Shown: positions 7,838 through 45,194 of the stretch, in pieces | Layout: every line of letters starts with the position of its first letter | Position numbering within the stretch: the stretch's first letter is position 1 | NCBI RefSeq assembly: GCF_000021565.1 | Contig: NC_012440.1 | Span: 1,132,210 to 1,196,209, forward strand | Direction of reading: 5' to 3' | Length of the DNA: 64,000 bases | Origin: Persephonella marina EX-H1 | Lineage (GTDB): Bacteria > Aquificota > Aquificia > Aquificales > Hydrogenothermaceae | The notes under the pieces: model-generated | Database searches by the model: none | The model's input: only the letters and a program-made list of their open reading frames with translations | Told to the model about the DNA's origin: nothing | Made by a program: the position numbers and the translations under genes

Positions 7838-9028
7838 ATGGCAAGAGAGAAGTTTGAGAGGAAGAAAGAGCACGTAAACGTGGGAACGATAGGACACGTA
7901 GACCACGGAAAGACGACATTAACAGCTGCTATAACATACGTACTATCAAAGAAAGGGTTGGCAGAGTTCATAGGGTACGGAGAGATTGATAAGGCACCGG
8001 AAGAGAGAGACAGAGGAATTACGATCAACATCACACACGTAGAGTACGAGACAGAGAAGAGACACTACGCACACGTTGACTGTCCAGGTCACGCAGACTA
8101 CATCAAGAACATGATAACAGGTGCTGCACAGATGGACGGAGCGATACTTGTGGTATCAGCAGCGGACGGACCAATGCCACAGACAAGGGAGCACGTGTTA
8201 TTAGCAAGACAGGTTAACGTTCCATACATAGTAGTATTTTTAAACAAATGTGACATGGTAGATGACGAGGAGCTATTAGAGCTTGTAGAGCTAGAGGTAA
8301 GAGAGCTACTGAACAAGTACGAGTTTCCAGGTGATGATGTACCAGTGATCAGAGGTTCAGCGTTAGGGGCACTGAACGACGAAGAGAAATGGGTTAAATC
8401 AATAGAAGAGCTATTAGATGCTATGGACAACTACATACCGACACCAGAGAGAGCGACAGACAAACCATTCTTAATGGCGATAGAGGACGTATTTACGATA
8501 TCAGGAAGGGGGACAGTTGTTACAGGAAGAGTAGAGAGAGGAACATTAAAAGTAGGGGATGAGGTAGAGATAGTAGGGTTATCAGACGAGATCAGGAAGA
8601 CAGTAGTGACAGGTATAGAGATGTTCAGGAAGACACTTGATGAGGCAGTAGCAGGGGACAACGTAGGAGTGTTATTAAGAGGAATAGGAAAGGATGAGGT
8701 AGAGAGAGGGCAGGTATTAGCTGCACCGGGATCAATCACACCACACAAGAAGTTCAAAGCACAGGTATACATACTTTCAAAAGAGGAAGGAGGAAGACAC
8801 ACACCATTCTTCCTTGGATACAGACCACAGTTTTACATCAGGACAGCAGATATAACAGGAACGGTAGTAGAGTTACCAGAAGGGCAGGAGATGGTAATGC
8901 CAGGGGACAACGTAGAGTTAACAGTAGAGTTAATGGAGCCAGTAGCTATAGAGGAGCAGATGAGATTTGCCATCAGGGAAGGTGGTAGAACTGTTGGTGC
9001 TGGTGTTGTTACTCAAATAATTGAATAA
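7838..9028 (+). CDS. tuf: Translation elongation factor Tu
   Basis: GTPase that carries aminoacyl-tRNA to the ribosome. 396 residues. Motifs: GHVDHGKT at about 19-26, [17 protein letters not shown], and a full beta-barrel domain 2-3 pair ending with GGRTVGAG. Start ATG 7838 after AGGAGG. Odd feature: synonymous codon use differs from flanking genes. By hand count about 28 of 40 Val codons up to base 8980 are GTA, with many TTA, ACA, ACG, GAC and TAC. From 8981 to the stop all Val, Gly and Thr codons end in T, the style of fusA and rpsJ. This suggests exchange with another tuf copy or lineage. Confidence 0.97.
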
Positions 9029-14210: not shown

Positions 14211-14591
14211 ATGATACGTAGAGGAACATATTTAAATACAGCTGATAACTCAGGAGCGAAAAAGGTTCAGTGTATAGGTATACCAAAAAAGGTAAACTTT
14301 GGAAAACAGACTGACTTTGCAACACTTGGTGATGTTATCACTGTAACTGTTAAAGATGCTCTCCCAAATGGAGCTGCCAAAAAAGGAAAGGTTTACAAAG
14401 CTGTTGTTGTAAGAACAGCTAAGGAAGTAAGCAGAGAGGATGGAAGCTACATAAAGTTTGATGACAATGCTGTGGTTCTCTTAAATAACAACCTTGAGCC
14501 TATAGGAACCCGTATCTTAGGACCGGTTGCCCGTGAGATAAGGGCTAAAGGATTCTACAGAATAGTGTCTTTAGCACCGGAGGTAATATAA
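14211..14591 (+). CDS. rplN: Ribosomal protein L14
   Basis: 50S protein at the subunit interface, in bridge B8. 126 residues (family about 122). The start [22 protein letters not shown] and the end [10 protein letters not shown] are as expected, with the extra residues in the middle around [11 protein letters not shown] start after AAGAGGTG. First gene of the spc group here. Confidence 0.97.
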
Positions 14592-20321: not shown

Positions 20322-21083
20322 ATGATAGAGCTCAAAACAAAGGAAGAGATTGAAAAATTAAGATACAGCAACAGAATAGTTGCTGAGATCTTACAGTTTT
20401 TAAAGGAAGAAACAAAACCTGGAATGACAGGTGTTGATATAGACGAGATAGCCCGTAGAGAATGTGAGAGAAGAGGTGTTAAACCTGCTTTTTTAGGGCT
20501 TTATGGATTTCCAGCTGCTGTCTGTGTTTCTATAAATGAGGAGATAGTTCACGGCGTTCCAAAAAAGAATAGGGTTTTAAAAGAAGGAGATATAGTAAGC
20601 CTTGATTTTGGTGTTGTTGTTGATGGCTGGTACGGAGATGCTGCCATATCTTTTGTCTTAGGTGACAAGATAAGCGACAGAAAGAAGAGGCTACTTGAAG
20701 GTGTTGAGAAAGCCTTAATGGCTGGAATAGAAAAATGTGTTCCTGGAAATAATGTAAAAGATATTGCGGCTGCTATAGAAGGCACGTTGGAGGCCTACCG
20801 TCTAGCCCCTATATGTGATTACGGGGGACATGGAATAGGGCGTAAGCCACACGAGGAACCTCATGTTTCAAACTGTGTGGCTAATGCTGAAGATGTTTTG
20901 CTGAGGCCAGGGATGGTTCTGGCTATAGAACCTATGGCAACACTTGGTAGAAGAAAGAACTTCTACCGTAAATTGAAGGATGGCTGGACTGTTGTTTCTA
21001 AGGAGAAGGCGCTTGCTGCCCATTTTGAGCATTCTGTAGCTATTACGGAAAATGGTCCAGACATACTTTCAAAATTAGATTGA
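20322..21083 (+). CDS. map: Methionine aminopeptidase, type I
   Basis: Removes the initiator methionine from new proteins. 253 residues. The metal site is complete: Asp in SLDFG, Asp in YGDAA, His in [14 protein letters not shown], Glu in AIEPMA and Glu in [12 protein letters not shown] 20322 start; ribosome site weak (TTTGTA). From about base 20780 onward it uses CGT arginine, TTG leucine and GGG glycine codons more than its 5' half, a mild compositional shift. Confidence 0.96.
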
Positions 21084-29810: not shown

Positions 29811-30553
29811 GAGTAACTGAGTATTATGAAGGAGTAGTTATCCTCTTTTCTTCTGTCAAGCTCTTTTATGAGATCTTCTGCATTTTTGAAAGGATCAGGA
29901 TGAAGGATCTGAAATATCTCCTCATCTTTTAATGTATCATTCACACCGTCTGTGCAGATAAAATAGAACTGATCCTTCTCAAGATAGTCATTTTTTATGT
30001 AGGGTTTTACACCTCTTTCCCAGTCTTCCATAAAAATATCCCCAATACCAAACTCAACATAATGTCTGTAAGGACTGTAAAATGCTTCTCTGTAGCTTAT
30101 AATCCCTTTATCAACAAGCTGCTGGACATAACTGTGGTCGTGTGAGAGATATATTATCTCCCTGTCTGTTATCTTATAAACCCTACTGTCACCTGCGTTG
30201 AATATGATACTTTTACTTCCATTCATATAAACACCTGCTACGGTTGTTCCACTATTGAAAATATTAAGTTTCATAAAATCTAACTGTATTCTGTAAAGTG
30301 CTTTATAAACCCCTTCTACACTGAATGGTATTTTTAATTTACCTAAACTCTCGCACACAGATCTGCTCGCTATATCCCCGCTGGAGAGGCCTCCCATACC
30401 ATCACAGATGGCAACAAGAATATCATCTTTATCTTTTTCTGTGTATTCAGGAGATCCCATACTTTCAGACTGAACTACCTTACCATCAATATAAAGGCAG
30501 TCCTGCTGGTAGTTTCTCAAGCCTCTGTCTGTATAGTAAAGTATCCTGTACAT
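29807..30553 (-). CDS. PP2C-family serine/threonine phosphatase
   Basis: 248 residues, cytoplasmic. Motifs in order: RGLRNYQQD (Arg and metal Asp), CDGMGGLSSGDIAS at about 69-82, FNAGDSRVYKI, the HDHSYVQQLVDKGIIS segment, CTDGVND and the terminal DNYSFI. All metal-binding Asp of the PPM family are present, so it should be an active Mn/Mg phosphatase. No partner kinase is adjacent. ATG start with AAAGGAAA ahead. Divergent from a 58-residue gene. Confidence 0.9.
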   Translation of the reverse strand: MYRILYYTDRGLRNYQQDCLYIDGKVVQSESMGSPEYTEKDKDDILVAICDGMGGLSSGDIASRSVCESLGKLKIPFSVEGVYKALYRIQLDFMKLNIFNSGTTVAGVYMNGSKSIIFNAGDSRVYKITDREIIYLSHDHSYVQQLVDKGIISYREAFYSPYRHYVEFGIGDIFMEDWERGVKPYIKNDYLEKDQFYFICTDGVNDTLKDEEIFQILHPDPFKNAEDLIKELDRRKEDNYSFIILSYS

Positions 30554-33866: not shown

Positions 33867-34202
33867 TCAACTGAAGGTTTTTTTAACGATATTCAGTCTG
33901 TTTAACATCTTGTCTTTTTCCTTTTCCTCTTCAAAAAATTTAAGGATCTCCTCATCACTGACGTTTATACTATTTAAGCTCTGCCCTTTTATCTTTTCTG
34001 TCACAAAGTCTGCTATAGCCATAAGTTTTTTACATCTTTTAGATGAGCTGAACTTTGCATCTTTTATTTTTCCGTCTTCTTCCAGTATGTATATCTCAAC
34101 TCTGTGAGCTCCTTCTTTAGCCGATCCTAATATTTCATATCCTTCAGGCTTTTCCTCTGCAAAGTTCTTTAAACCCTTTTTGTGGTATTCAGATACTTTC
34201 AT
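33867..34202 (-). CDS. Cysteine-poor IscU/NifU-N-like protein
   Basis: 111 residues. GKIKDAKFSSSKRCKKLMAI and FVTEKIKGQSL follow the IscU pattern 'G-x-IxDakFk-x-x-GC-x-x-x-iA ... TE-x-ikGks'. Only the second of the three cluster-binding Cys is kept (in SKRCKKL); the first and third are absent, so it cannot be a standard iron-sulfur scaffold. The C-terminal third is lysine/glutamate-rich. Single gene, with AAGGAGAAG ahead of ATG 34202. The name rests on pattern similarity only. Confidence 0.55.
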   Translation of the reverse strand: MKVSEYHKKGLKNFAEEKPEGYEILGSAKEGAHRVEIYILEEDGKIKDAKFSSSKRCKKLMAIADFVTEKIKGQSLNSINVSDEEILKFFEEEKEKDKMLNRLNIVKKTFS

Positions 34203-34238
34203 CTTACTTCTCCTTTTTATTTTATTTTCGGACGGGAG

Positions 34239-34266
34239 TTGACGAACTGACAGTTAAATATTAGAT
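34239..34266 (+). promoter_or_regulatory. Candidate promoter for a structured RNA
   Basis: TTGACG (34239-34244) and TTAGAT (34261-34266) are 16 bases apart on the plus strand. The start would fall about 34273, the first base before the three-way junction. The -10 match is moderate; the coincidence with the RNA 5' end is the main support. Confidence 0.4.
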
Positions 34267-34273
34267 TTTTATC

Positions 34274-34335
34274 GCAGGTGCTGAGGGTGTACACCCGCGC
34301 TCCTGGACGGCATACCGTCCTTGTACAGCACCTGC
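34274..34335 (+). ncRNA. Candidate structured RNA: GC-rich three-way junction
   Basis: GCAGGTGCTG (34274-34283) pairs perfectly with CAGCACCTGC (34326-34335). Inside are two hairpins: GGGT-GTAC-ACCC (34285-34296) and GGACGG-CATA-CCGTCC (34305-34320), joined by A, GCGCTCCT and TTGTA. All three helices are perfect. By hand count 40 of 62 bases are G or C, in a neighbourhood near one third GC; in AT-rich thermophiles such islands typically mark structured RNA. Strand is uncertain: plus-strand has a promoter match; on the minus strand it would be the 3' end of birA or the leader of the IscU-like gene. It fits no riboswitch or ribozyme class I know. Confidence 0.5.
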
Positions 34336-34337
34336 AT

Positions 34338-35279
34338 TTATATCTTTCTTACAGATATATCTCCAGAGTATACCGTTAAAACTCCTTTTTCTGTCAGTAC
34401 TTTTAGCCCTCCAGACCTGTCAAGACCTATCAGTCTTCCTTCAATACCCTCATCTAATATACGGATGTTCTCTCCTTTCCATAAGAGATCTTTTTCTATC
34501 TCATCTGTAAGATCAAGACTGCTGAATTTATCAAGACTTTTTTCAATTGTTTCCAGTACTCTGCAAAATAACTCTTTTCTGCAGAATGTTTTACCTTCCT
34601 CAATCTTTAATGATGTTGCTGTATCTTTTATATCACCGAACTCTTCAGGCTCGTTGTTTATATTTATACCTATACCTGCTATGATCCTGTTTATCTCATT
34701 TCCTTCAATCTCTGTTTCAATAAGGAATCCTGCAAACTTCCTGTTATTTATGTAAAGATCGTTAGGCCATTTTATCTTTATCTGGTTTTCTAAATAATCT
34801 TTAATGGCTTCTTTTACAGCGTAGGGAAAAAGAAGTGAGAGCTTCATAAGATCATTCAGAGGGTAATTTCTTTTTATAACTATTGAGAAATACAGTCCCT
34901 TTCCTTTAGACGATATCCATCTTCTCCCTTTTCTTCCTTTTCCTTTTGTCTGATTCTCTGCAAGTACTACAGTTCCATCAGGAAGATCATTTGATTTTGC
35001 GTACATGTTTGTTGAGTCAATCTGGTCAAAAAATATGTAATTTTTTCCTATATACCCAGTTTTTAATGCTCTTTTTATCTCAACTGGGAGAAGATAGGGG
35101 GTTCTCTCAATCAGCCTGTAACCTTCGGAGCTGTGTTTTATTCTGTATCCAAGATCTTCCAGTTTTTTGATCCTTTTCCAGACGGCAACCCTTGAGATTC
35201 CCGTTAATTTTGAAAGTTTTTCTCCAGATACGGTTTTGTCTTCTATCTGTTCCAAAATTATCTGATCTGTTCTGTCCAT
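34338..35279 (-). CDS. birA: Biotin-protein ligase with N-terminal helix-turn-helix
   Basis: Attaches biotin to carboxylase carrier domains; the DNA-binding domain suggests it also represses biotin genes. 313 residues. Helix-turn-helix at about 15-60 (SGEKLSKLTGISRVAVWKRIKKL), then the ligase domain with DSTNMYAK, the biotin-binding GKGRKGRRW at about 113-121, KWPNDLY and GIGININN. C-terminal SH3-like domain is present. The stop lies 2 bases from the structured element. Divergent from trpD2. Confidence 0.94.
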   Translation of the reverse strand: MDRTDQIILEQIEDKTVSGEKLSKLTGISRVAVWKRIKKLEDLGYRIKHSSEGYRLIERTPYLLPVEIKRALKTGYIGKNYIFFDQIDSTNMYAKSNDLPDGTVVLAENQTKGKGRKGRRWISSKGKGLYFSIVIKRNYPLNDLMKLSLLFPYAVKEAIKDYLENQIKIKWPNDLYINNRKFAGFLIETEIEGNEINRIIAGIGININNEPEEFGDIKDTATSLKIEEGKTFCRKELFCRVLETIEKSLDKFSSLDLTDEIEKDLLWKGENIRILDEGIEGRLIGLDRSGGLKVLTEKGVLTVYSGDISVRKI

Positions 35280-43581: not shown

Positions 43582-45194
43582 CACAGACCTCCTGCTGTTC
43601 CATCTCTTCTGACATCAGAAGCACCCTGGAAACCTCCATCCATCTTTCTGAGTATGGCATGTATAGAGCCAAGATAGAATGAGAAAGCTTCCCTCCTGTC
43701 AAGTCTGTAACCTTCCCTTTTCAGGTACTCTATTATCTCCTTATCAAATCTATCCTCATAACTTATAAGTCCACCAAGTGAGCTGTGTATTCTTGGCTGG
43801 ACGATAGCCTTGTCTATGGACATATCCTGATCAACGATATGCATAAGAAACTGTGTTAAAACAGAGAATATTCTCTCACTTCCGGGGCTTCCCATCACAA
43901 GCCACGGTTCATCATTCATAAATACTATTGTAGGTGATACAGTTGCCCATGGAACTGAGTTTGGTCTCAGGTAATAAGGGTGATCAGGTTTTTTATACTC
44001 AAAATCCATAAGGTAGTTGTTATAAAGAAAACCAAGTCCTTCTGCGGCAGCTTTACTTCCATAAACCCTTTCTACAGACTGTGTAAGACTGACTGCCATA
44101 TTCTCATCCATAACAGACAGATGTGTTGTTTCCTCTGTGTACTCGTCGTATGTTTCATGAATTGGGAGATGAAAATCTATGGACTGTGCTATCTGTTTCA
44201 CCTTTTTTGAGGCATACCTTGGACTTAGCATCCTTTCAGGTGTTATCTGTGGGTAAAAGTTAGGGTCGTAAGGTCTTCCTGTTCTCTCAAGTAAGGCTTC
44301 CCTTATTATCTCTATAAGGAGATGTATCTTTTTGATCTTATCTGAATGAAGTTCTTTCTGTGATGTTGCATCAAGCATAAGAAGTGCATAAATAAGAGGT
44401 CTTCCCGCTCCAGGTGGTGGCATTGTGTATATCTTCAGTCCTCTGAATCTTCCAACAACAGGTTTTCTCTCAATAGGAAGTGGTATGAGTGCAAGGTCGT
44501 CATATCTTAAAAGTCCTCCATTCTCCCTCATGTCTGCGTCAATCATCTTTGCAGGCTTTCCCTGATAGAAATACTCAAAACCGTATCTTGCAATATCCTC
44601 CAGTAGTCTTGCAAGATCATGCTGTTTAAAGACATCACCGGGATTGTAAGGTTTACCATCTTTCAGAAAGTACCTTCCACCTGAGAAAGATGGAACTTTT
44701 TTGAAGTTTTCAAGCTCTCTTTTCTGGAGTCTATGCTGGAGCTGTGTTATTTTGTAACCCTCATAGGCTACCCTTATTGCAGGCTCAACCACCGTTGACC
44801 ATGGCAGTTTTCCGTACTTCCTGTGTACATAACCCAGAACAGCAAGTGTACTTGGAACAGTTGTTGCTCTATATCCTACTCCTCTATCCTCCTCATATAT
44901 GGCACTTACATGGGCAAGGGAAGGGGCCCTTGATGATCCATCTATAGCTATCACCTTTTTTCCTGTATATATGACCATCATAGTCTGACCGCCTATTCCA
45001 CTTCCCTGAGGTTCGCAGACAGCCAGAGCGAGGGCTGAAGCAACGGCAGCATCAACAGCGTTTCCACCCTGTCTGAACATCTCAATTCCTGCCTGTGTTG
45101 CATCTGGAAATGCTGTGGCAACCATACATCTTCCTGATTCTGAAAATTTAATCCCATCAGCTTCAAAACTATTTTCTATCTTTTTCAGATCCAT
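43581..45194 (-). CDS. Gamma-glutamyltransferase-family protein, no signal peptide
   Basis: 537 residues. Ntn-hydrolase of the GGT family: FRQGGNAVDAAVASALAL, EPQGSGIGGQ, the cleavage and nucleophile Thr in ETTHLSVMD, and GSPGSERI. Typical bacterial GGTs are exported, but the N-terminus (MDLKKIENSFEADGI) has no signal peptide, so this one appears cytoplasmic. Self-cleavage should give two subunits. Operon with an ATP-grasp ligase upstream (1-base gap) and an amidohydrolase downstream (1-base overlap). Substrate unknown; glutathione is unlikely to be the main one in this lineage. Confidence 0.87.
   Translation of the reverse strand: MDLKKIENSFEADGIKFSESGRCMVATAFPDATQAGIEMFRQGGNAVDAAVASALALAVCEPQGSGIGGQTMMVIYTGKKVIAIDGSSRAPSLAHVSAIYEEDRGVGYRATTVPSTLAVLGYVHRKYGKLPWSTVVEPAIRVAYEGYKITQLQHRLQKRELENFKKVPSFSGGRYFLKDGKPYNPGDVFKQHDLARLLEDIARYGFEYFYQGKPAKMIDADMRENGGLLRYDDLALIPLPIERKPVVGRFRGLKIYTMPPPGAGRPLIYALLMLDATSQKELHSDKIKKIHLLIEIIREALLERTGRPYDPNFYPQITPERMLSPRYASKKVKQIAQSIDFHLPIHETYDEYTEETTHLSVMDENMAVSLTQSVERVYGSKAAAEGLGFLYNNYLMDFEYKKPDHPYYLRPNSVPWATVSPTIVFMNDEPWLVMGSPGSERIFSVLTQFLMHIVDQDMSIDKAIVQPRIHSSLGGLISYEDRFDKEIIEYLKREGYRLDRREAFSFYLGSIHAILRKMDGGFQGASDVRRDGTAGGL

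Follow-up and report, generated by a model that had tools for sequence, protein, structure and literature searches.

An insertion between birA and an iscU-like gene of Persephonella marina EX-H1 carries a GC-rich three-way junction that, as judged by sequence comparison, is conserved, dispersed and structurally maintained as a family in the Hydrogenothermaceae. The junction is located at positions 34274-34335 of the 64,000-nucleotide stretch analyzed here (the window; G000:C2:1132210-1196209, from a genome of 1.98 Mb in two contigs, of which C2 has 1,930,284 bases). We read the locus as a free-standing small RNA gene on the plus strand, and we favor, with modest confidence, the view that the family is one of horizontally mobile small noncoding RNA genes that have a sigma-70-type promoter. 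In this scheme, a promoter at 34239-34267 would start a transcript at or near 34274, the transcript of approximately 62-70 nt would fold into the junction, and the outer helix with its T-rich tail would close and probably end the transcript, which would then act in trans. The family would move as self-contained promoter-RNA units to plasmid-type contigs and unrelated chromosomal sites. It is apparently undescribed, and ordinary in kind, namely a small RNA gene.

The outer helix comprises 10 bp (34274-34283/34326-34335); its 5′-strand is GCAGGTGCTG (34274-34283) and its 3′-strand is CAGCACCTGC (34326-34335), a terminator-like stem that is directly followed by the T-rich tail ATTTATAT (34336-34343), which overlaps the birA stop codon of the opposite strand. 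Enclosed within it are hairpin 1 (GGGT-GTAC-ACCC, 34285-34296), a perfect palindrome with a 4-bp stem (34285-34288/34293-34296) and a GTAC loop, and hairpin 2 (GGACGG-CATA-CCGTCC, 34305-34320), with a 6-bp stem (34305-34310/34315-34320) and a CATA loop. The helices are joined by the strands A (34284), GCGCTCCT (34297-34304) and TTGTA (34321-34325). The initial annotation had described these three perfect helices, their junction strands, the length of 62 nt and the GC content of 65%, all of which proved correct. The GC content of the window is 37.7%, and the junction is the highest of five GC islands, the others being located at 8117-8198, 20766-20842, 30350-30413 and 44973-45083 (0.58-0.63 in 62-nt windows). 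Folding energies are −36.2 kcal/mol (z −4.95; none of 200 shuffles as good) for the plus strand and −32.4 kcal/mol (z −3.73) for the minus strand. In the window copy, the minimum-energy plus-strand fold replaces the 4-bp GTAC hairpin with one based on AGG/CCU, whereas for each of the other copies the optimum is the three-helix form. Junctions of equal or greater perfection (stems of 10, 6 and 4 bp) occurred 14 times in 100 dinucleotide-shuffled windows vs. once in the real window; perfection alone is thus approximately a 1-in-7 event per 64 kb and constitutes weak evidence. It is conservation, not perfection, that makes the junction real.

A family-wide BLAST search identified three relatives, 76-78% identical, in three other Hydrogenothermaceae genomes (G063:C16:233-299, G023:C292:910-972 and G006:C17:68007-68077). 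The same four copies, and no more, were retrieved when 136 genomes of the phylum were searched with a pattern and with a covariance model, and when the latter was applied to 391 relatives from 261 genera; the window copy scores 87.6 bits with this model. The carriers are therefore four of the 136 phylum genomes, all from one family, and the Aquificota as a whole, from which the initial annotation proposed to build a model, were far too broad a base. Its other concern, a mobile-element end present in many copies, was also addressed: the junction is a single copy in G000, and the other carriers likewise have one copy per genome. A weak covariance-model match in G027 falls within a gene of the penicillin-binding-protein type and no longer has the helices, and the remaining weak matches (G083, G049 and others) have many broken pairs and were judged to be chance. 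Similarly, 5 and 51 pattern matches in viral contigs were all chance when judged by fold or model, and the window and G063 versions, used as BLAST queries against phages and plasmids, returned chance matches only. A tRNA scan found nothing at the junction locus. Rfam (release 15) gave no match at the gathering threshold for the junction or for a second element, X (see below), in agreement with the initial view that the candidate fits no familiar riboswitch or ribozyme class.

The aligned copies share the core GCAGGTG-(T)-CTGAGGG....CCCGCGCTCCTG-hairpin-CTTGTACAGCACCTGC. All helices are retained in all four copies, with standard pairs in 98.8% of 84 pair cells; the 5′-strand of the outer helix is invariant save for one additional T in the three relatives, and both long junction strands are identical throughout. 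Compensatory changes, which the initial annotation had asked for, are present in the related genomes: four of 21 pairs are changed on both sides, a number reached by none of 500 shuffles and absent from slid controls, on a basis of four copies, two of which have an identical core, and hence few events. In the relatives, hairpin 1 is GGGG-ATAT-CCCC, in which a T-A pair is replaced by G-C and the palindromic loop is retained. In hairpin 2, three of the six pairs are altered on both sides, and one further pair is G-U in G006. The palindromes run into the loops, where three of four loop “pairs” remain palindromic through two-sided changes. According to one study (PMC8794818), template-switch mutation can both generate hairpins and keep them paired through compensatory changes, and so can mimic covariation. 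The annotation had also noted that GGACGG recurs at 34230-34235 and might pair alternatively; the repeat is present, but the three relatives have no equivalent upstream, and such a switch is not conserved.

The promoter-like sequence consists of a −35-like hexamer, TTGACG (34239-34244, plus strand), and a −10-like hexamer, TTAGAT or TAGATT (34261-34267; TTAGAT at 34261-34266), separated by 16 nt (17 nt to TAGATT); both were recovered by a consensus scan as well as read from the sequence. TTAGAT ends 7 nt upstream of the junction, in keeping with the proposed start at its first base; in the sister copies, the −10 position is taken by TATATT or TACATT. A start-positioned promoter test was applied to four junction and three X copies, using the E. 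coli consensus in these AT-rich flanks. The plus-strand scores summed to 63 vs. a null of 24.8 (none of 500 shuffles), with three of the seven flanks being kin to one another, whereas the minus strand gave no signal (17 vs. 18.9 in shuffles). The G063 junction promoter is homologous to the G006 X promoter over approximately 40 nt (none of 300 shuffles); these two flanks are thus not independent. Taken singly, the promoters of the G023 and G006 junction copies are weak. The first eight bases 3′ of the junction contain five (window), five, five and six Ts on the plus strand and one, two, six and three on the minus strand. A consensus terminator scan calls no terminator at the outer helix, though all four copies have T-rich tails. 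The lone wobble of the junction and those of X are all G-U on the plus strand; on the minus strand, the wobble-bearing copy has an A-C mismatch and folds worse. The strand had been left open initially. Promoter, T-tails and G-U pairs give better support to the plus-strand small RNA, while the suggested alternatives, a birA 3′-end or an iscU leader, find no other copy tied to either gene.

In the window, birA (biotin ligase; BPL and HTH_11 domains; 34338-35279, minus strand) is separated from the iscU-like gene (NifU_N-type; 33867-34202, minus strand). Six relatives have no such gap: their birA either overlaps the iscU-like gene or runs straight up against it, which implies that the window carries an insertion of approximately 120-130 bp (roughly 34218-34337). 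Over 34200-34341, the insertion uncouples two genes that are coupled in the relatives; a birA search of genome contigs identified only distant birA genes. The other copies reside at unrelated loci, namely two contigs with plasmid-type replication genes (G023:C292, with a Rep_3 initiator and iteron-like 22-bp repeats, and G063:C16, with a primase-helicase and iteron-like repeats) and one chromosomal gap, flanked in G006 by surE and by a nucleotidyltransferase gene of the RlaP type. In G014 and G024, which share 95% SurE identity with G006, CRISPR-array-like repeats are found downstream of surE instead of the junction. The region after surE, which holds such repeats in G014 and G024, both X and CRISPR-like repeats in G000, and the junction in G006, appears to be insertion-prone. 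Furthermore, G063:C162, a plasmid relative of G023:C292 (Rep 86% identical), does not contain the approximately 874-bp segment that includes the junction. One end of this segment resembles a separate MITE-type insert, so that the difference is not one event. An 87-bp unit (L138:1323-1409), with inverted ends GAGAGTG...CACTCTC and the look of an IS256-type MITE, also occurs in G016, G022, G008, G023:C307 and C224. Two further GC-rich hairpin units are located near X and the junction (L138:1095-1260); their minus-strand loops, TTCCATT and TTCAATT, are similar to those of tRNA T-arms.

The element X was first met in the 874-bp segment of G023:C292. It spans approximately 83 nt and comprises an outer stem and two hairpins with complementary loops, CCCTGC and GCAGGG, which would be able to kiss according to the predicted structure. 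Copies are located at G063:C16:1296-1377 (L137:1296-1377), at G006:C2:10115-10189 (L290:3616-3690), in partly degenerate form in G023:C292 (L138:1008-1089), and in diverged form on the minus strand of G000 (C2:1307149-1307230), downstream of surE and beside the CRISPR-like repeats. X therefore occurs in all four junction genomes, as judged by BLAST outside G000, and BLAST identified it in no further genome of the family, a search that a diverged X could escape. In the diverged G000 copy, both loops are preserved and the 10-bp hairpin stem is altered on both sides at several pairs; taken by itself, the full-length fold of this copy shows no unusual stability (z −0.79). Five pairs of X are changed on both sides, which is reached by five of 500 shuffles. 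The G006 copy of X is embedded in frame within a 1448-aa phage-type ORF, just past a PBECR2 nuclease domain; this ORF runs antisense to the proposed RNA. The G023 homolog of the ORF has a different sequence at the X region, and no relatives of the ORF were found in viral contigs.

The nearest contender to the small RNA gene, which we consider rather unlikely but worth weighing, is an untranscribed palindromic DNA element of the RPE or MITE kind, mobilized in trans by a recombinase or transposase, whose palindromes would serve DNA recognition or single-stranded folding. The presence at unrelated sites of discrete units bounded by inverted ends (GGCAGGTG...CACCTGCC), the site empty in relatives at birA, and hairpins that are palindromic to the center and mostly kept so are all expected of such an element. 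The minus strand, which contains no stop codon in any frame as read from the sequence, and X in frame in the phage-type ORF recall the Rickettsia palindromic elements within genes (PMC3733652), and these elements and the CGTC- or GTAG-tagged REPs are likewise short, palindromic, GC-rich units in genes and gaps. By contrast, the junction is present once per genome, its unpaired strands are invariant yet non-palindromic within a three-way junction, and a promoter signal positioned for a start on one strand would be unexpected. One end of REPs and RPEs bears a GTAG or CGTC tag (PMC3733652), which is not present at the ends of the four junction copies as read directly. MITEs are also small, with terminal inverted repeats, and occupy unrelated sites; the junction differs from them in its internal covariation, no parent transposon was found, and the flanks of the four copies show no consistent target-site duplication. 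A further, improbable reading is a folded single-stranded DNA site of mobile replicons (an initiation, oriT-like or attC-like site) that remains in chromosomes after integration. Two of the four copies share their contig with a Rep_3 or primase-helicase gene, and the loops are palindromic, but the birA and surE copies have no mobile-replicon genes beside them, and the promoter signal would be left unexplained. Integron attC sites have the core sequences RYYYAAC/GTTRRRY, whereas the junction ends in GGCAGG/CCTGCC.

Two further readings concern the minus strand, and we regard both as very improbable. A cis element of a birA-iscU operon, whether a 3′-UTR structure, an attenuator or a riboswitch-like iscU leader, would suit the position between two co-directional genes and a minus strand that also folds. 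It hardly accounts for the other three copies, which are beside unrelated genes, none near birA or iscU, and which do not occupy a conserved position upstream of homologous genes; moreover, no leader separates birA from the iscU-like gene in the relatives, the G-U pair becomes a mismatch on that strand, and no minus-strand promoter signal is found. The chances are similarly slim for a short coding module that reads QVLYKNAAAFRSAGISPQTPA, the remnant of a phage protein. The frame is open in all copies, and the G063 flank resembles by eye the flank of the phage ORF (NNISP.PKPE); on the other hand, in the window copy both the core of the peptide and the end of its reading frame differ, with all pairs kept, and peptide readings of the junction and X have no relatives in plasmids or phages.

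A plus-strand small RNA gene agrees best with the general plan of bacterial trans-encoded small RNAs, including those on plasmids and phages, which likewise have a promoter-like sequence at the 5′-end, a short structured body, a closing helix with a T-rich tail, an intergenic location and conserved unpaired segments. The junction has such a promoter-like sequence by the sequence test, with some of the flanks being related, as well as a conserved secondary structure. It differs in that its 5′- and 3′-ends are paired in one outer helix and in its absence from Rfam. The one study of noncoding RNAs in the Aquificales found in the literature searched, with P. marina among the compared genomes, predicted novel candidates from Aquifex aeolicus only (Lechner et al., 2014; PMC4227106). 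Those candidates belong to the same group and display similar signals (GC-rich, stable and intergenic), whereas the junction family is absent from the searched Aquificota genomes outside the Hydrogenothermaceae.

With regard to function, the invariant strands GCGCUCCU and UUGUA might provide a surface for protein binding or pairing on a heat-stable scaffold, an idea that we hold only weakly. The self-complementary hairpin loops may also permit dimerization; a simple dimer calculation favors self-pairing by 12 to 18 kcal/mol, as palindromes would give. A search for mRNA start sites with extended complementarity to GCGCUCCU found none. As seed targets, we rejected the sole other AGGAGCGC in the genome, which is antisense inside an antiporter-like gene, and a matching 8-nt stretch at position 14251 of the window, which by eye is coding sequence of ribosomal protein L14. 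AGGAGCGC occurs only twice in the 2 Mb of G000, below a rough estimate from base composition, and avoidance of GCGC is possible. It is tempting to speculate, albeit as a doubtful proposition, that the junction and X form a mobile two-RNA system with a common promoter type, which travels on plasmids and phages of hot-vent bacteria and acts as a pair, e.g., as an RNA-based regulator or a defence/counter-defence module with a protein partner. A pairing calculation between X and the junction showed no energy gain.

The junction was noticed by eye in an ordinary operon, and comparative evidence was able to confirm it. If transcribed, it would represent a new structured RNA family on the mobile DNA of deep-branching thermophiles, a group in which small RNAs have been little studied outside A. 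aeolicus, and its invariant unpaired strands, together with the co-occurrence of X, offer concrete handles toward a partner or target.
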